Below are positions 34,860 through 46,600 of a stretch of 64,000 bases of DNA, in pieces. The DNA lies in contig NZ_CP018632.1 in NCBI RefSeq assembly GCF_002215215.1, positions 4,646,501-4,710,500 on the forward strand, written 5' to 3'. The notes beneath the pieces are model-generated. The model was not told the DNA's origin. It ran no database searches and saw nothing but the letters and a program-made list of their open reading frames with translations. A program made the position numbers and the translations under genes. The DNA comes from Granulosicoccus antarcticus IMCC3135. Lineage in GTDB: Bacteria > Pseudomonadota > Gammaproteobacteria > Granulosicoccales > Granulosicoccaceae. The first letter of the stretch is position 1. Each line of letters begins with the position of its first letter.

Positions 34860-36054
34860 CAAGGATACCCCGTCGTTCAGGGCGGGGAAATATTGGAATG
34901 CTGTATAAATTGCCAGTAGTTGTTGACCCTTCTGGGTGAATGGGGGCGGAACGGTTATACAATCGAGCTGTGAAATCAACATGCATCAAGGTTCTCAAAG
35001 TCAGGGTAAAAGATCGCCACGCGCCGCTTTTGCGCAGCATGGCGACTGAAGTCAATCAGGTATGGAACTACTGCAACGAGCTGTCTGATCGTATGATTCG
35101 GGAGCGTGGTCGATGGATGTCCGGATTTGACTTCTCTGCTTACACGGTTGGTGCGTCGAAGCAGTTCGAGCACATTGGCAGCAGTACGATTCAGGAAACG
35201 GCCGAACACTACGCCAGCAAACGCTACTCGGCAAAGCGTCGCAAGCTGAGGTGGCGCAAGAGTTTTGGCGATAAACGCTCGTTGGGGTGGGTGCCCTTCA
35301 AGGCTCGGGCAGCTCACTGGAAGCACGGGCAGGTCTTCTTTGCAGGTTCTCACTTCAAGGTATGGGACAGCTTCGGTCTTGCCAATTACAAATTCAGGGC
35401 AGGTTGTTTCACTGAGGATGCTCGCGGTCGATGGTATTTTTGCATCTGTGTCTCGGTTGATCGCACGTGTCCCAAGGGGCAAGACAGTATAGGTATCGAT
35501 CTTGGTTTGAAAACCGTTGCCACCTGCAGCGATGGCACCGTGCTGGAGGGACGTTGGTATCGCCACCTGGAAGGCAAGCTTGCCAAGGCCCAACGGGCAA
35601 GACGCAAGCGGCGCACCCGGGCGATTCACGCAAAAATCAGGAATCGCAGAGCAGATGCCCTGCATAAATTCAGCCGCAACCTGGTTAATCGATGCGGTGA
35701 GATCTACGTGGGAGATGTCAGTAGCTCGAAGCTGACAAAAACCACGATGGCCAAGTCTGCGCTTGACGCTAGCTGGGCCAGCTTCAAGACAATGCTCGAC
35801 TACAAGAGCCAGCAGGCCGGTATTGTCTATCGAGAAATCAATGAAGCCTATACCACGCGAGCGTGCTCCGAATGCGGAAGCCTGTGCGGGCCGCAGGGAA
35901 TAAGAGCTCTTTCGGTAAGAGACTGGCAATGTGTTGAATGTGGTGTTCAGCATGATCGTGACGTTAACGCGGCTCGAAATATTCTCCGTCTCGGCGCAGG
36001 ACATTGCGCTCCTTAGTGGGAATCCTCTTTCTTCAGGGAGAGGAGGATGTCAAG
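34860..36054 (+). mobile_element. IS200/IS605-superfamily tnpB-only (IS1341-like) element inserted in the importer operon
   Basis: The element separates the two permease genes and carries only tnpB; no tnpA (Y1 transposase) is seen. The left end has an inverted repeat, CCCCG (34868-34872) and CGGGG (34883-34887), with CGTTCAGG between. The right end has a hairpin with arms ATCCTC (36022-36027) and GAGGAT (36043-36048), followed by GTCAA, a sequence typical of right ends of this group. No target duplication is expected. Exact ends are uncertain by a few bases. The stop codon of the DppB-like gene (36050-36052) lies within the terminal GTCAA. Confidence 0.8.
34940..36016 (+). CDS. tnpB: TnpB-family RNA-guided nuclease
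   Basis: 358 residues: helical N-terminal domain, RuvC-I motif SIGIDLGLKTVAT with D187, zinc ribbon C309/C312 and C331/C334, RuvC-III aspartate D341 in HDRDVNAARNI. At the usual RuvC-II position, where TnpB has Glu in a VVxED pattern, this protein has IYVGDV with glycine 258; a Glu at 302 in NEAYTT is a possible replacement, as in the rearranged sites described for Fanzor-related proteins. GTG at 34970 is a reasonable alternative start (KSTCIKVLKVRVK). TnpB proteins cut DNA with a guide RNA from the element's right end, which helps the element persist. Activity here is not certain. Confidence 0.9.
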   Translation: MGAERLYNRAVKSTCIKVLKVRVKDRHAPLLRSMATEVNQVWNYCNELSDRMIRERGRWMSGFDFSAYTVGASKQFEHIGSSTIQETAEHYASKRYSAKRRKLRWRKSFGDKRSLGWVPFKARAAHWKHGQVFFAGSHFKVWDSFGLANYKFRAGCFTEDARGRWYFCICVSVDRTCPKGQDSIGIDLGLKTVATCSDGTVLEGRWYRHLEGKLAKAQRARRKRRTRAIHAKIRNRRADALHKFSRNLVNRCGEIYVGDVSSSKLTKTTMAKSALDASWASFKTMLDYKSQQAGIVYREINEAYTTRACSECGSLCGPQGIRALSVRDWQCVECGVQHDRDVNAARNILRLGAGHCAP

Positions 36055-39794: not shown

Positions 39795-40310
39795 CTATTT
39801 CAACACCCCATCGAGCAATAGATACCCTGGCAACCAGCCAGTTAACACACCCACTGACGTGGCAACAGTTCCTGTGAGTTTCACGATCGGTTTTTGCAAA
39901 GCCAACAGCAGAAAGAATAAAAACCACAAGAATGACCAGGCCACCCAGGATAGACCAAACCAGACTTGCCAGATGCTCGATGCATTCATCAAAGTGTCAA
40001 GGGCAACAGGCACAGCAGTGATCGCGACAAACAGGCTGAACCAGCCAAGCCCCTTGCCATCCGACTTGTTGAAGCGATTGATGGCTATCCAGAAATAGGT
40101 AAAGCCGAAGAGAAATGTCAGCGCAGCAGCCTTGATAGATTCGGCATCGGCATCGACGCCAAAGGCAAGTTTGAAGGACACCATGCAGGCAATAATTCCC
40201 GAGAATACATTGATGACCCAGATTTCATTGTCAGCAATACGACCGTGAAGCCAGATACCGTTGAGAACCAGCACGGCACCGACGTAAAATAGTGAAAGTC
40301 CCAGCAGCAT
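39795..40310 (-). CDS. amiS: AmiS/UreI-family amide or urea channel
   Basis: 171 residues, six hydrophobic segments, beginning LLGLSLFYVGAVLVLNGIWLHG, with FGFTYFWIAINRF in the middle; these mark the AmiS/UreI family of passive amide or urea pores. It should admit formamide or urea across the inner membrane. It lies 140 bases after the FmdB gene and converges on the LysR gene with an 8-base gap. Confidence 0.9.
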   Translation of the reverse strand: MLLGLSLFYVGAVLVLNGIWLHGRIADNEIWVINVFSGIIACMVSFKLAFGVDADAESIKAAALTFLFGFTYFWIAINRFNKSDGKGLGWFSLFVAITAVPVALDTLMNASSIWQVWFGLSWVAWSFLWFLFFLLLALQKPIVKLTGTVATSVGVLTGWLPGYLLLDGVLK

Positions 40311-40450: not shown

Positions 40451-40804
40451 CTAGTGGCTGATCATCCACGGCCGTTTGCCAGGGAATGACTTGGCCCCAT
40501 TGGCTGCTGTCACTGTCGCCTTCGACTTGGATTTTCCTGATCCACAACAACCGCAACTGGCTGGATGCGGCATCTGACGCGGATCTTGATCGCGCGACAT
40601 TTTCGGTACATTCGATGAAAGCTCATTGACATCCATGGCATGTCGCGTATGTGCTGATGTGACGCTCTGACGTGGCGCTGTCAACCAGGCCCGACTCAGC
40701 GGTGACTGACATTGACTGCATTCCATTGCCTTGTCTCTGTCTTCGTAGTCGCGACGGAACTCATGAGGACCGCAGTTATTACACACATAGTCGTAGACTG
40801 GCAT
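40451..40804 (-). CDS. fmdB: FmdB-family zinc ribbon protein
   Basis: 117 residues. The N-terminal FmdB zinc ribbon PVYDYVCNNCGPHEFRR with a second pair CSQCQS is followed by a longer tail with a CGCCGSG cysteine cluster. FmdB proteins accompany formamidase and may regulate or help it; their role is not firmly known. ATG at 40804 lies 10 bases after the fmdA stop, so the two are one operon. Confidence 0.9.
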   Translation of the reverse strand: MPVYDYVCNNCGPHEFRRDYEDRDKAMECSQCQSPLSRAWLTAPRQSVTSAHTRHAMDVNELSSNVPKMSRDQDPRQMPHPASCGCCGSGKSKSKATVTAANGAKSFPGKRPWMISH

Positions 40805-40814
40805 TGGTATGCCC

Positions 40815-42047
40815 TCAGCTTTTGTCAAGTGACAGAGGCATGGACACGCCACCAAAGTCCTGAACCACCGGCCCCGCAGCACTGGGGTTGATATCGAAAT
40901 CAAAGATCTCCGTAGGCAACCACAAGGTTGCGCAAGAATTGGGAATATCCACGACCCCACTGATATGCCCTTGCACAGGTGCGGTACCCAGTATTGAGTA
41001 GGCCTGAGCGCCGCTGTAGCCGAACTTCTTCATGTACTCAATCGCATTCAGACACGCCTGCCGGTAGGCAACATTTACATCCAGATAGTGCTGCTTGCCT
41101 GATTCGTCAACTGAAATTCCTTCAAATATTATGTAATCCTGATAATTGGGAGTAATCGGACTGGGTTTAAAAAGTGGGTTCTTGACACCATAAGTCTTCA
41201 TGCCACCCTTGAGTACTGATACTTTCATGTGTACCCATCCTGCCATCTCGATCGCACCGCAGAAGGTAATTTCGCCATCGCCCTGACTGAAATGCAAATC
41301 CCCAACCGACAGCCCACCGCCTTCAACATAGACAGGAAAATAGATCTTTGAGCCACGTGAAAGATCCTTGATATCACAGTTGCCACCATGCTCCCTGGGG
41401 GGCACGGTACGGGCCCCCTCAGCCGCCGCTTTCGCCTTGGCATCCCCGGTAAGTTTTCCCATATGAGCTGTTTGTGCATACGGCGGGTTGGCCAGCGGTG
41501 GTACTCGATCGGGGTCCGTTGCAATCAGTCCCAGCTCACGCTCGTTCCATGTGGACAACAATGACGGATCAGGCAAACAGCCAATCAGTCCGGGGTGAAT
41601 CAGACCCGCGTATCGAACGCCGGGTACATGACGAGACTTGGTAAACATGCCTTCAAAATCCCAGATGGATTTTTGCGCTGAAGGAAAATGATCAGTCAGA
41701 AAGCCACCCCCATTGGTCTTTGAAAAGAAGCCATTGAAGCCCCACATGCTTTCCTCTTTTGCACCGATATCCAGTAATTCCACAACCAGAAGATCACCCG
41801 GCTCCGCCCCCTTGACACCAATCGGACCGCTCAGAAAGTGAACCGTACTCAAATCAACGTCGCGTACGTCATCAGCACTGTCGTTGTTCTGGATATACCC
41901 GCCAGTCCAGTCATAGGTTTCCAGTATGAAATCATCGCCTGGCTTGACCCAGGTGGCCATCGGAATGTCCGGGTGCCAGCGATTGTGAACATTCTCGTTT
42001 TCATAGGGAGAACTGTTCAAGTCGACCTTGATAAGAGTGTCAGTCAT
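40815..42047 (-). CDS. fmdA: Formamidase
   Basis: 410 residues, the usual length of FmdA of the acetamidase/formamidase family. It has the family's features: FLSGPIGVKGAEPGDLLVVELLDIG, a stretch with FLTDHFP, PGVRYAGLIHPGLIG and EHGGNCDIKDLSRGSKIYFPV (two segments). It hydrolyses formamide to formate and ammonia in the cytoplasm, giving nitrogen. It is followed by fmdB and amiS and is divergent from the transporter-kinase gene, which probably senses a related compound. Confidence 0.95.
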   Translation of the reverse strand: MTDTLIKVDLNSSPYENENVHNRWHPDIPMATWVKPGDDFILETYDWTGGYIQNNDSADDVRDVDLSTVHFLSGPIGVKGAEPGDLLVVELLDIGAKEESMWGFNGFFSKTNGGGFLTDHFPSAQKSIWDFEGMFTKSRHVPGVRYAGLIHPGLIGCLPDPSLLSTWNERELGLIATDPDRVPPLANPPYAQTAHMGKLTGDAKAKAAAEGARTVPPREHGGNCDIKDLSRGSKIYFPVYVEGGGLSVGDLHFSQGDGEITFCGAIEMAGWVHMKVSVLKGGMKTYGVKNPLFKPSPITPNYQDYIIFEGISVDESGKQHYLDVNVAYRQACLNAIEYMKKFGYSGAQAYSILGTAPVQGHISGVVDIPNSCATLWLPTEIFDFDINPSAAGPVVQDFGGVSMPLSLDKS

Positions 42048-42336
42048 GGCATACCTCGTTTTGTTAGATTGTGGTAACAGAGGAAATTATCTACAGCGAA
42101 TAGCAACAACGGGTTTGTCCGTTCTTTGCGGAGCTAGTTATGCTTGCGCTTCACCGTTCACTTCGGCAATCAGTATTGCCAAGACCATGGCGATGACACA
42201 ATACGTCAATCGACGTACACTCGATACGCAGTACCTTTCGCGAGTCGCTTGTAGACGAGATTCAGATGCCCTTCAGGAACGTATCGTCAACGAACATCCA
42301 GCAGACTCCGAAATTCAACCCACAGCGACTACTGAC
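42048..42336. other. Intergenic region between fmdA and the sensor gene
   Basis: 289 bases. It likely holds divergent promoters. An inverted repeat TACGTC-AATC-GACGTA lies at 42202-42217. The plus-strand frame stays open through it, with ATGs at 42187 and 42193, but the translated text has no recognisable domain, so it is read as leader. Confidence 0.45.
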
Positions 42337-45300
42337 ATGAGCGCGCAAAGGGCTCCGCAAAAGATTTTCCCGATCCGCCGCAAGTACAACAGCTGGGTCG
42401 CCAATGAATCCATGGAAGACTATGCCCTGCGCTACACGGCACGCAGCGTACGCAAGTTTTCCATCTGGCGTGTTGGCAACACCGCCTTCGGTGCTGCATC
42501 CTTTCTTGCCCTGGAAGCCATTGGTGCGGCCATGGTCCTGAACTACGGTTTCATGAACACGCTGTGGGCCATCATCGCCGTCGCCGCCATAACCTTTATG
42601 GCGGGATTGCCCATCAGTTATTATGCAGCTCGATACGGTGTCGACATGGACTTGCTCACACGCGGTGCAGGCTTTGGCTATCTGGGTTCCACCATCAGCT
42701 CGCTGGTGTATGCCTCGTTCACCATCATCTTCTTCGCTTTCGAAACAGCCATTCTTGCCGTCGCTTTGCAGATGTGGATCCCACTACCACTGTGGGCCTG
42801 GTATGTCATCTGTTCCTTGCTCATCGTACCTTTGGTGGCACGCGGCATCACACTCATCTCGCGCATACAGCTTTGGTCCCAGATACCCTGGTTAGCACTG
42901 CTGATAGCGCCATACATCGCAATTGCCTGGAAAAACCCGCAGGCCTATGTGACTTTCAGTCAGTTTGCTGGCTCAGTTTCCGGCAGCGCAGACTTCGATC
43001 CGATTCTGTTCGCATCGGCAGCAACCATTGCGTTTGCACTGTGTGTGCAGATTGGTGAACAGGTGGATTTTCTGCGGTTTCTACCAGAACGCACGCCGCA
43101 GAACCGATTTCTCTGGTGGTCAGCTGTAATATTGGCAGGGCCCGGTTGGATTCTGACAGGCGCGATGAAGATGCTGGGTGGCGCCTTCCTCGCCTTCCTC
43201 TTGCTGGAAGCTGGCAATACTGCCTCGCAGGCCATGGAGCCAACGCGTATGTACCTGCTGGGCTTCGAGCACGTCTTTGATAATCCGCGCCTGGTGCTGT
43301 TTGCAACCCTGGTGTTTGTTGTAATATCCCAAGTCAAGATCAACATAGTCAATGCCTACGCAGGATCATTGGCCTGGTCGAATTTCTTTGCCCGACTGAC
43401 CTATAGCCATCCCGGCCGTGTGGTCTGGCTGATTTTCAATTGCCTGATCGCCATTCTGGTCATAACGCTTGGTGTTTTCGAGTCACTGGAGCATGTTCTT
43501 GGACTGTACAGTACGGTGGCTGTTGCCTGGGTCGGCACCCTGGTCGCTGACCTGGTTATCAATAAGCCCTTGGGACTCAGCCCGAAAGGTATCGAGTTCA
43601 AACGCGCTCATTTGCATGACTTCAACCCGGTAGGACTGGGCTCAATGGCCCTTTCCGCCGCTATCGGGATGACAGCTCAGCTGGGCGTATGGGGAGCGAT
43701 AACAGCAGCTTTCGCACCGTTCCTCGCTCTGGGCTGTACCTTCATCTTCACGCCCTTGTTGGCCATCCTGACACGCAGTCGATACTACCTTGCAAGGACA
43801 CCGTCTATTCCCGGCAACAATGGCAAGGTATTGCGCTGCACCGTCTGTGAAAACCTGTTCGAAACCGATGACATGGCGCAATGCCCTGCCTATGGTGCGC
43901 CTATTTGTTCACTGTGCTGCACTCTGGAATCTCGCTGTCATGATTTGTGTAAAGACCCCGCGCCCATCATGCAGCACACGCACAGAGTACTCTCGGCTAT
44001 TCTGCCCAACAGTGCCGCTCACCTGGTAAACAGGCGTGTTGGCAGCTACCTGTTCGTACTGCTTGCACAAAGCATCGTGCTGGGCTCTATCATCGGCCTT
44101 GTCTACCTGCAATCACTAGCAACGATGGGCACTGACAGTAACCGTGAGCAACTGGATAGCCTGTTCTTCGAGATCGCCGTTATTCTATTGATCCTGGTCA
44201 CTATTTCGAGCTGGTGGACTGTACTGGGCAAGGAAGGTCGACGAATGGCTCAGGATGAACTCAACCGTCAGAACGAACTGCTGATTCAGGAAAGTGAGGC
44301 TCATCGCCTGACAGATTCTGCCTTGCAGAAAGCAAAGGAGTTGGCCGAGCAAGCCAATCAGGCCAAGTCCAGTTATGTTGCCGGCATGTCGCACGAGTTA
44401 CGCTCACCACTGAACGGAATTCTTGGCTACTCACAGATTCTCTTGCATGACGAGAGCCTGAGTGACAAACAGCGCAGCGCTGTACAGATAATTCATCGTA
44501 GTGGCGAACATCAGCTCGACCTGATAAACGAACTGCTTGATCTTGCTCGTATCGAAGCCGATCGTGTTCGACTGGAACCTGCACCGTTGCCATTGGACGA
44601 ATTCTTCAAGGAAGTGTTGCAGATGATTCGTCCACTGGCTGAGGCGAAGGATTTGCAACTGAATCATGCTTGCCAGGGAATCATGCCGGACTTCGTGCAC
44701 GCCGATGCCAAGCGAATGCGTCAGATACTGATAAACCTGTTGAGCAATGCCGTGCGATTCACCGATGCAGGACGCATTACACTGGCCGTAGCATTCACAG
44801 ATAACGAGCTTGTTATCAGCGTTCAAGATACCGGCATTGGCATTTCGTTGCACGACAAAGTGCGGATTTTCGAGCCCTTCGAACGGGGTTCTGCTGGCCG
44901 ACAACGGGGTGAACCAGGCGCTGGATTAGGATTGACAATCACGGAGAAATTAGTCTCCCTGATGAAAGGTCGTCTGACGTTGCACAGTGAACCAAATCAG
45001 GGCAGTACGTTCAAGGTGTTCCTGCCTTTAATACATGCCAAGCCACCATCTCCAAATGAAGCCCCCGAACGTGAGGTCATAGGTCACAGCGGCTCTCCGC
45101 GCAGATTACTGGTGGTGGACGATCAGGCAGTACAGCGTCATATGCTGATTGGCATGCTTACCCCCTTGGGATTCAGCGTACGAGAAGCTGCAAGCGGTAC
45201 CGAGTGTCTGGAACAACTCGATACTTACAGGCCAGACGCCATTTTGCTCGATCTGAGCATGGCCGGACTGGACGGATGGCAGACCGCAAGAAAAATACGC

Positions 45301-45729
45301 GCTCGAGGCATCATCAACCTCCCAATCATCATTGTTTCAGCAGATGTACTGGGTAATCACGCACAAAAAATGTCGGCTTCGCAATGCCAGGCTTTCGTGG
45401 CCAAACCCGTGCTGGAGTCTGAGCTTCGTGCCGCACTCAAGACCGAGCTTGATCTTGCCTGGATCTATAAATCCAGAGTTGTCATATTGAATAGTCAGCT
45501 TGAAACATCAAGAGCACCTCAATTGTCCTTCAACAACCAGGACCGGGATGCACTGCTGCGACTGGTTCGTATTGGCCACGCAAATGGCCTGCATGAGCTG
45601 CTTGATGAACTACTGCGCAGGGATGAGAGCCTGACTGCATCCTGCACCACTGCACGCGACTGGCTTGACAGGTTCGAACTGGACCATCTGGAAGAATTAC
45701 TACTGGAGATCGACAATGCCCACCTTTGA
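42337..45729 (+). CDS. NCS1-type transporter fused to a hybrid histidine kinase with receiver domain
   Basis: 1130 residues. Residues ~20-480 resemble an NCS1 purine/cytosine permease (YNSWVANESMEDYALRYTARS, NTAFGAASFLALEAIG, then ~12 hydrophobic segments). A Cys-rich stretch (C501, C504, C516, C524, C527, C528, C534, C538) suggests a zinc site. Two more membrane segments precede the kinase: HisKA with H686 in MSHELRSPLNG, HATPase with DTGIGIS and GAGLGL, and a receiver with phospho-acceptor D972. A ~95-residue tail follows. The transporter part probably senses, and perhaps also imports, a small nitrogen compound such as an amide or purine. The start is uncertain: 42187 or 42193 are possible, as no clear ribosome site precedes 42337. 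It overlaps the next regulator by 14 bases. Confidence 0.9.
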   Translation: MSAQRAPQKIFPIRRKYNSWVANESMEDYALRYTARSVRKFSIWRVGNTAFGAASFLALEAIGAAMVLNYGFMNTLWAIIAVAAITFMAGLPISYYAARYGVDMDLLTRGAGFGYLGSTISSLVYASFTIIFFAFETAILAVALQMWIPLPLWAWYVICSLLIVPLVARGITLISRIQLWSQIPWLALLIAPYIAIAWKNPQAYVTFSQFAGSVSGSADFDPILFASAATIAFALCVQIGEQVDFLRFLPERTPQNRFLWWSAVILAGPGWILTGAMKMLGGAFLAFLLLEAGNTASQAMEPTRMYLLGFEHVFDNPRLVLFATLVFVVISQVKINIVNAYAGSLAWSNFFARLTYSHPGRVVWLIFNCLIAILVITLGVFESLEHVLGLYSTVAVAWVGTLVADLVINKPLGLSPKGIEFKRAHLHDFNPVGLGSMALSAAIGMTAQLGVWGAITAAFAPFLALGCTFIFTPLLAILTRSRYYLARTPSIPGNNGKVLRCTVCENLFETDDMAQCPAYGAPICSLCCTLESRCHDLCKDPAPIMQHTHRVLSAILPNSAAHLVNRRVGSYLFVLLAQSIVLGSIIGLVYLQSLATMGTDSNREQLDSLFFEIAVILLILVTISSWWTVLGKEGRRMAQDELNRQNELLIQESEAHRLTDSALQKAKELAEQANQAKSSYVAGMSHELRSPLNGILGYSQILLHDESLSDKQRSAVQIIHRSGEHQLDLINELLDLARIEADRVRLEPAPLPLDEFFKEVLQMIRPLAEAKDLQLNHACQGIMPDFVHADAKRMRQILINLLSNAVRFTDAGRITLAVAFTDNELVISVQDTGIGISLHDKVRIFEPFERGSAGRQRGEPGAGLGLTITEKLVSLMKGRLTLHSEPNQGSTFKVFLPLIHAKPPSPNEAPEREVIGHSGSPRRLLVVDDQAVQRHMLIGMLTPLGFSVREAASGTECLEQLDTYRPDAILLDLSMAGLDGWQTARKIRARGIINLPIIIVSADVLGNHAQKMSASQCQAFVAKPVLESELRAALKTELDLAWIYKSRVVILNSQLETSRAPQLSFNNQDRDALLRLVRIGHANGLHELLDELLRRDESLTASCTTARDWLDRFELDHLEELLLEIDNAHL

Positions 45730-46600
45730 GTTGGACGGACTCGCAACAAAACCCGTTGTACTCGTTGTTGATGATGAGCCGGGCAGCCTGAAACTGCTGT
45801 GTGACACACTCGGCACGACTGGTTATACGGTTCTGGTGGCAAGGGACGGTGAATCCGCAATGAAGCGATTGTCACGAATCATCCCGGATGCCATTCTAAT
45901 GGATGCACTGATGCCAGGGCTTTCTGGGTTCGATACATGCCGTCAGATCAAATCTCACCCAGAGTGGATGCATATCCCCATCATTTTCATGACTGGTTTA
46001 TCCGAGACAACCCATGTTCTGGAAGGTTTTGACAGCGGTGGCGTGGACTACGTCGTCAAACCGTTACGCATTGCAGAAGTAATCGCCCGACTACGCACTC
46101 ATATTCACACTGCTCGTGAGGTCAGACTTGCTCATACAGCCATCGACCGAGCCGGCCTGTCTATCGTGCGAGTGGATGAAAAATTGCAGCGCGCCTGGTG
46201 CTCACCACATGCAATGAAGGTGATCGAAAAGCTGGGCATAGACACAAGCGCTGCATTGCTGGCTGGGTTCTGGCTTGACACCGCTCAGTCCGAACAGTGG
46301 TCAGAAATGCTGGATATCAGGGATCTGGGGGAAACTGTCAAGGGTGAAATACTACTGCTGATTTCCTGCCGAAACACCATTTCCAAAGCTGTTGCAAGAA
46401 TCGCTAACGCTGCCCTCACTCCCAGAGAAACGGAGGTACTTTCCTGGATAGCCAAAGGCAAGACAGATCGGGAGATAGGTGACATTCTCGGTATCAGCCC
46501 CCGCACCGTCAACAAGCACCTTGAGCATACCTTTACCAAACTCGGCGTGGAAACAAGGGCCGCCGCCGCCGCACTGGCAAGCCAGCAAGTCAGTGCCTGA
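45716..46600 (+). CDS. Response regulator, receiver plus LuxR-type DNA-binding domain
   Basis: 294 residues. The N-terminal receiver has the acid pair in LVVDDEPG (D19, D20) and phospho-acceptor D63 in ILMDALMPG; residues about 230-285 form a LuxR-type helix-turn-helix (LTPRETEVLSWIAKGKTDREIG, then ISPRTVNKHLEHTFTKLG). The middle ~100 residues are an unclassified linker domain. TGGAG lies 9 bases before ATG 45716, which overlaps the 3' end of the hybrid kinase gene; they are a coupled two-component pair. The likely target is the divergent fmdA promoter. Confidence 0.93.
   Translation: MPTFELDGLATKPVVLVVDDEPGSLKLLCDTLGTTGYTVLVARDGESAMKRLSRIIPDAILMDALMPGLSGFDTCRQIKSHPEWMHIPIIFMTGLSETTHVLEGFDSGGVDYVVKPLRIAEVIARLRTHIHTAREVRLAHTAIDRAGLSIVRVDEKLQRAWCSPHAMKVIEKLGIDTSAALLAGFWLDTAQSEQWSEMLDIRDLGETVKGEILLLISCRNTISKAVARIANAALTPRETEVLSWIAKGKTDREIGDILGISPRTVNKHLEHTFTKLGVETRAAAAALASQQVSA

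Follow-up and report, generated by a model that had tools for sequence, protein, structure and literature searches.

The closest described relatives of the system treated here are sensor kinases with a carrier-like membrane domain. The SLC5/STAC kinases CbrA, CrbS and RpuS join a carrier-type membrane domain to a histidine kinase, act with a partner regulator and control nutrient use (PMC13022988, PMC9100948). CbrA is regarded as a rare transceptor, and how the carrier substrate drives the kinase is an open question (PMC13022988). CrbR is a regulator of the LuxR type that uses an inverted repeat (PMC5715377), and the ammonium sensor kinase of Kuenenia, an Amt-kinase fusion, carries the domain of a nitrogen-source carrier (PMC5764959). 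Here we describe a permease-histidine kinase hybrid and its LuxR-type regulator in a 64,000-nucleotide stretch of the Granulosicoccus antarcticus IMCC3135 genome (the window; contig NZ_CP018632.1, positions 4,646,501 to 4,710,500), where both genes are transcribed divergently from the formamidase operon fmdA-fmdB-amiS. Coordinates are window positions unless preceded by the handle of another locus (L) or genome (G). The hybrid resembles CbrA, CrbS and RpuS in design, but its carrier is one that we take to be related to NCS1 and not SLC5, its neighbors are amide and urea genes, and the STAC position is taken by an eight-cysteine segment followed by a two-helix hairpin. Unlike it, the Kuenenia kinase has another kind of carrier, Amt, and another ligand. 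The permease-kinase family is a variant of the transporter-kinase "transceptors", and the palindrome that its loci share is new here.

Based on gene order and this palindrome, the kinase and the LuxR-type protein very likely control amide and urea use through a predicted operator. We consider it quite probable that they form a two-component system dedicated to regulating the use of short-chain amides, which would bind the operator and switch on fmdA-fmdB-amiS. In the model that we propose, the NCS1-type permease module, whose cytoplasmic tail possibly binds zinc, would bind a small amide or urea, which it might also transport. The ensuing conformational change would travel through the added two-helix hairpin and a coiled coil to the kinase, which would autophosphorylate on His686. 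The phosphate would then reach the LuxR-type regulator either directly or via the built-in receiver (Asp972), and the regulator would bind ATACGTCA-NN-TGACGTAT between the divergent genes to turn on fmdA-fmdB-amiS. The neighbors shared among loci point to formamide, another short-chain amide or urea as the probable ligand.

Clusters of fmd and urt genes are present in many Pseudomonadota genomes and on plasmids, and the family provides a candidate regulator for them. The description of the Methylophilus methylotrophus fmd cluster includes a putative positive regulator and, in the portion available, mentions no sensor kinase. A hybrid kinase and a LuxR regulator lie by urtABCDE operon III of Ectopseudomonas guguanensis (PMC13296017), and amiE, fmdA, fmdB and urtABCDE lie together in Pseudomonas veronii (PMC13209695). 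Both neighborhoods are as described here; the available portions of these two accounts mention no permease fusion, cysteine segment or operator. Among the matches listed in searches of the open-access literature, there was no NCS1-kinase fusion and no kinase controlling fmdA. GrtK/GrtR of Burkholderia glumae was considered as a relative and dropped for its PilS-like membrane domain and Fis-type regulator (PMC12918730). The family offers a second, NCS1-related transceptor case that comes with a stand-alone form of the permease for comparison and with a predicted operator. Furthermore, formamide is a cheap candidate inducer, which would make the coupling accessible to reporters.

Architecture of the permease-kinase

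The reading frame of the kinase gene is open for 1233 codons on the forward strand (42028-45729) and extends upstream of the ATG at 42337. We chose this ATG as the start because homologues begin near the equivalent position and the palindrome lies upstream of it. The product is a hybrid histidine kinase with HisKA (E 3.4e-19), HATPase_c (E 2.3e-27) and Response_reg (E 2.9e-20) domains and intact phospho-accepting His and Asp residues. His686, Asp972 and all eight cysteines of the segment are invariant in 78 of 78 aligned full-length kinases, a set that counts in the window kinase and excludes L080, L081 and open reading frames (ORFs) shorter than 1050 residues. By hydropathy, the first 478 residues contain 12 hydrophobic segments, and a further pair lies at residues 571-589 and 606-624. 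A sequence-only reading of this DNA had assigned a permease, an eight-cysteine segment, a histidine kinase and a receiver to one 1130-residue protein, and the open frame, the homologues, the Pfam matches and the hydropathy profile all bear this out. The same reading had a LuxR-type regulator gene overlapping the kinase gene; it does so by 14 bases, starting at ATG 45716, and its product matches the receiver (E 9.6e-24) and GerE (E 4.3e-18) families. Residues 1060-1130 of the kinase (45514-45726), C-terminal of the receiver, matched no Pfam family and contain no conserved histidine in the alignment.

In L069, L080, L081, L135 and L139, the permease-cysteine part is fused to other kinase cores (ORFs of 879-1272 residues) with weak or partial similarity to the kinase part of the window protein. 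The permease-cysteine module apparently was combined with, or adapted to, kinase cores on more than one occasion. L067 (5941-19800) has two permease-kinases in tandem, approximately 9.5 kb apart in one genome and each with a LuxR regulator, the second of which is cut by the end of the stretch. In L013 (8602-11747), from a metagenome-assembled genome (MAG), the kinase frame breaks after about 626 residues and resumes in another frame, perhaps through a sequencing error.

Linkage to amide and urea genes

A profile of the permease-cysteine part matched 53 of 398 sampled Pseudomonadota genomes and 18 of the 369 genomes in a class sample, and a single-protein search found matches in four of 57 near relatives. 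These counts include the genome of G. antarcticus each time, and the matches include one genome with a stand-alone permease only (G312) and a few fragments. In the phylum sample, the profile was present in 39 of the 40 genomes with an NF045496 formamidase versus 14 of 358 others (Fisher p 5e-41). We read 86 neighborhoods (L006 was excluded as a duplicate of L084), including two without a fused kinase (L083 and L142) and fragments at contig ends. Genes were counted by tblastn with window and locus reference proteins at identity thresholds that we set; a gene caller was not used for the counts because it favored frames on the wrong strand where loci were GC-rich. Of the 86 loci, 75 carry one or more of fmdA, urt, ure, fmdC, amiS, amiE, amiB and atzF/biuH, 49 carry fmdA and 41 carry fmdA together with urt. 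A homologue of the LuxR regulator follows the permease-kinase in 78/86 loci. Most commonly, the kinase-LuxR pair is divergent from urtABCDE-fmdA-fmdB(-amiE). The compact fmdA-fmdB-amiS layout of the window recurs in two congeners (L084 and L086), an Oxalobacteraceae MAG (L007), Paucibacter (L014) and Roseateles (L015). In a quick tree, which has long outgroup branches, the neighborhood label was clustered (17 changes versus a shuffled mean of 32.4). Urease-type neighborhoods recur in several places on this tree, where the stand-alone permeases branch outside the kinases.

Matches to the permease-cysteine part also occur in 532 of 72,556 plasmid records; Klebsiella accounts for 342 of these. 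A layout like that of the permease-kinase loci is present in the independent annotation of pBVIE02. The annotation of the kinase varies between ATP-binding protein, ArcB and PotE. Klebsiella pneumoniae pOXA1_040009 (L159) has the kinase and LuxR genes beside urtABCDE, a short formamidase frame (1008 bases) and an adjoining IS1 transposase gene.

These neighborhoods bear on an alternative in which the permease module is mainly an amide or urea importer and kinase signaling is a by-product of transport flux, as in a true transceptor. Stand-alone homologues do occupy transporter-like places, L072 before fmdA and amiE and L083, with its partial cysteine motif, adjoining urease genes, and the SLC5-kinase CbrA transports histidine (PMC13022988). 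However, uptake is otherwise provided for in 66 of the 86 loci, which encode Urt proteins or AmiS, and import by the kinase would therefore be redundant there. We regard a primary role in import as conceivable but unlikely, and the dedicated amide regulator as the better description of the pair.

A predicted operator that tracks the kinase

We examined 57 intergenic regions, the window included, that separate a kinase gene from divergent amide or urea genes. The dyad TACGT-N6-ACGTA occurred in 25 of them; when the regions were shuffled 20 times, the commonest five-base dyad was in no more than three. A symmetric profile with the operator consensus given above was built from the highest-scoring site in every region, the lowest quarter of scores being dropped on rebuilding. 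Its score exceeded the 95% level of shuffled sequence in 54 of the 57 regions and the 99.9% level in 51, values that are in-sample and relative to single-base shuffles. The score thresholds used below (14 for loci and 12 for outside tests) were set after the in-sample scores were known. The center of the window site is about 162 bases from the start of fmdA and about 127 from that of the kinase. The site is the sole match in the window to TACGTCN4GACGTA with zero mismatches; at three mismatches, matches are at chance level.

In the whole genome of G. antarcticus, the window site was the only match to TACGTMNNNNKACGTA, for which the reversed control matched once per strand, and to the stricter ATACGTCANNYRACGTA, for which the reversed control gave none. 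The genome also encodes a UrtC homologue (66% identical, G000:C1:6128772) and a urease alpha subunit (G000:C1:2725815), both far from the locus and from each other and without a strict operator. Of 10 genomes, seven gave a match to the stricter pattern; in six it lay in the region separating kinase and target, and in G737 it lay 79 bases before fmdA. The reversed pattern matched in none. Of the three genomes without a match, G070 has neither a profile match nor a site, and in G012 and G019 the sites depart from the pattern. The 86 loci, 1.57 Mb in total, contain 70 sites with a score of at least 14, versus none in one Markov control. Sites at this score were present in 57 loci, that is, 43 of the 49 with fmdA and 14 of the 37 without it. 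Among the 18 sites outside the trained regions, eight lie before fmdA, five before urtA1 (as far as about 9.6 kb away from the kinase) and four before a kinase, and one (L008:122) could be assigned to no target.

We also examined 11 named replicons outside the training set, picked from the 532 plasmid records to spread over genera, although some are perhaps close kin of training genomes. All have the kinase and LuxR genes, and 10 of the 11 have a site at a score of at least 12, at which the control gave five hits in 1.37 Mb. For example, psymB of Sinorhizobium meliloti USDA1106 has a site approximately 90 bases before urtA and 1.7 kb from the kinase. By comparison, we scored 14 fmdA clusters, several of which include urtABCDE, from genomes of the class sample that lack the profile, and all fell short of 12. 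The contrast between the replicons and these kinase-less clusters indicates that the site follows the kinase and regulator and not fmdA. It also bears on whether another nitrogen regulator binds the palindrome and the kinase is merely adjacent. The predicted operator looks like a generic inverted repeat, as such a scenario would have it. But the threshold was reached in none of the profile-less clusters, the site is not widespread in genomes that carry the profile, and LuxR-type regulators do use inverted repeats (CrbR, PMC5715377). We find a foreign binder improbable and favor the LuxR-type partner of the kinase as the protein that would occupy the site.

Urease loci of the Burkholderiaceae type mostly lack the standard site. 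A variant palindrome, ATACGCC-N4-GGCGTAT (with zero to two deviations), lies near urease-linked kinases at L117:18133, L114:14573, L116:11693 and L140:11692. The L117 and L114 sites precede urtA1, those in L116 and L140 are weaker and near the kinase, and L082 and L124 have none. This pattern, from few sites, suggests that paralogues in one genome may use altered operators. More tentatively, and with a confidence just short of even, we propose that a wide transceptor family with an NCS1 amide/urea permease, a zinc-finger tail and several kinase cores could be the long-missing regulator of the formamide/urea regulon across Pseudomonadota, the urease-linked paralogues being insulated by ATACGCC-N4-GGCGTAT.

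The divergent fmdA-fmdB-amiS operon had been named as the likely target from the sequence of the window, and the conserved divergent linkage, the co-occurrence at the genome level (much weaker in the class sample) and the tracking of the kinase by the operator all support this choice. Several observations weigh against the regulatory reading. In the class sample, the profile was present in only six of the 20 fmdA genomes versus 12 of 349 others (p 1.4e-4), which implies that fmdA is often regulated otherwise. The rule that fmdA goes with this kinase, drawn from the 39 of 40 genomes of the phylum sample, is rejected by these six of 20, and the permease-kinase is common but not obligatory for fmdA. 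Eleven of the 86 loci hold no amide or urea gene. Four of these (L009, L010, L109 and L141) end near the kinase and L142 is a distant permease without a kinase, but L069, L071, L075, L079, L080 and L081 span several kb on at least one side. Furthermore, 29 of the 86 loci have no site at a score of 14, and 24 have none at 12. Those below 14 include six with fmdA (L013, L078, L085, L123, L135 and L139), and the Methylococcaceae loci (L010-L012) and several urease-type loci have no operator site. The Thioclava replicon is the one of 11 without a site at a score of 12. Among the 14 kinase-less clusters, the best score (11.4 in L181, between fmdA and urtA) falls just under the threshold, and contig ends cut L177 and L180 near fmdA. 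Genomes and loci are also related, and the counts are not independent.

Proposed relationship of the permease module to NCS1 carriers

We take the permease module to be a far branch of the NCS1 family, by transitivity through intermediate sequences. The permease part of the window protein matched no Pfam permease model, PF02133 included, and a genome-wide search for PF02133 was likewise empty at E 0.001. Comparison with PDB sequences (phmmer to E 1, profile to E 10) returned nothing usable. The intermediates are L083, a stand-alone homologue 43% identical to the window permease part that matched PF02133 with 32.0 bits (cut-off 23.5), and L142, a distant stand-alone permease without a kinase that matched it with 36.4 bits (same cut-off) and scored well below the cut-off of TIGR00800. 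The stand-alone permease L072 matched neither model. In profile comparison, a set containing L142 gave 98.6% and CodB and AllW by themselves gave 1.6%; this latter, direct comparison is not significant and counts against the relationship. AlphaFold2 (AF2) gave a poor model of the permease part from 10 sequences (pLDDT 51.9), with CodB as the top fold match (E 7.1e-3) and none at 0.001. The matches right after CodB are carriers that are presumably of the LeuT type. The original description of the module as an NCS1-like permease is supported by way of L083 and L142 and not by direct Pfam and profile comparison. No SLC5 (SSS-type) family was among the Pfam matches at E 1 for the window protein and 14 members. 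Outside Pseudomonadota, an Arthrobacter plasmid (L160:5881-7608) encodes a stand-alone protein of 575 residues, approximately 40% identical to the permease part and annotated as hypothetical.

An NCS1 origin invites the idea that the sensor instead responds to a different nitrogen compound, of the kind usual for NCS1 carriers (cytosine, allantoin or hydantoin), and that the amide genes belong to a wider nitrogen response; the distant relatives CodB, AllW and Mhp1 are annotated as nucleobase, allantoin and hydantoin carriers. However, the recurring neighbors are fmdA, urt, ure, amiS, amiE and fmdC, no homologue of Escherichia coli CodA, CodB, AllB, AllW or YbbY was found at E 1e-5 in any of the 86 loci, and the strict operator occurs once in the genome of G. 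antarcticus, by fmdA. Such a ligand has little likelihood in our view, and we retain an amide or urea as the predicted signal.

The eight-cysteine segment

The cysteines of the segment are C501, C504, C516, C524, C527, C528, C534 and C538. The full motif is present in 85 of 87 ORFs; the exceptions are L083, which retains four cysteines, and L142, which has none of the motif. L072, a stand-alone permease of 559 residues, ends soon after the motif; its gene precedes fmdA and amiE and is divergent from the kinase gene of that locus. Conservation of the full motif in this protein, which has no kinase, indicates that the segment belongs to the permease. A model of the 66-residue segment reached a pLDDT of about 80 over the core, and its first 20 fold matches were mostly RING, PHD, FYVE and LIM domains, none better than E 0.2; a Prok-RING_1 match (E 0.7) was under the cut-off. 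From this model, the segment is perhaps a structural, two-zinc, RING-like finger on the permease tail. The sequence-only reading had the cysteine cluster relay or gate the kinase signal. The segment is not supported as a kinase-specific part, given that L072 keeps the motif beside fmdA and amiE and that the two-helix hairpin intervenes between segment and kinase, but a gating role retains some probability. That the segment is itself the input, as a metal or redox sensor gating the kinase, agrees with its strict conservation in 78/78 kinases but is improbable, for it is also conserved in the stand-alone permease and its model resembles, weakly, structural zinc fingers.

Features of the locus and other genes in the window

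The features of the locus are listed in Table 1. The FmdB-type protein is the weakest call of the operon, with scores under the cut-offs of Zn_ribbon_8 (31.7 bits, cut-off 34.4) and NF053663 (113.9, cut-off 120).

Table 1. Coordinates of the permease-kinase locus, its predicted operator and the divergent operon in the window.
Feature	Position	Strand	Evidence
amiS, amide/urea channel	39795..40310	-	PF02293 (AmiS_UreI) 6.1e-55
fmdB, zinc-ribbon protein	40451..40804	-	TIGR02605 34.1 bits, cut-off 31.3; ORF start MPVYDYVC
fmdA, formamidase	40815..42047	-	NF045496 762.8 bits, cut-off 500
Predicted operator ATACGTCAATCGACGTAC	42201..42218	.	Divergent intergenic region; profile and pattern searches
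Transporter-histidine kinase hybrid, 1130 aa	42337..45729	+	Open frame, homologue-set start, HisKA/HATPase_c/Response_reg
Permease module, 12 hydrophobic segments, taken as NCS1-related via intermediate sequences	42337..43776	+	Hydropathy; L083/L142 match PF02133
Eight-cysteine segment C-x2-C-x11-C-x7-C-x2-CC-x5-C-x3-C, residues 501-538	43837..43950	+	Invariant in 78/78 kinases
Two-helix membrane hairpin, residues 571-589 and 606-624	44047..44208	+	Hydropathy; between cysteine segment and kinase
HisKA domain, phospho-acceptor His686	44365..44559	+	Pfam; His invariant in 78/78
HATPase_c domain	44704..45030	+	Pfam
Receiver domain, Asp972	45109..45438	+	Pfam; Asp invariant in 78/78
Response regulator, receiver and LuxR-type (GerE) DNA-binding domain, 294 aa	45716..46600	+	Pfam; overlaps kinase gene

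Elsewhere in the window, an ORF on the forward strand (34940-36016) has CxxC motifs near its end and encodes a putative TnpB-type transposon protein.

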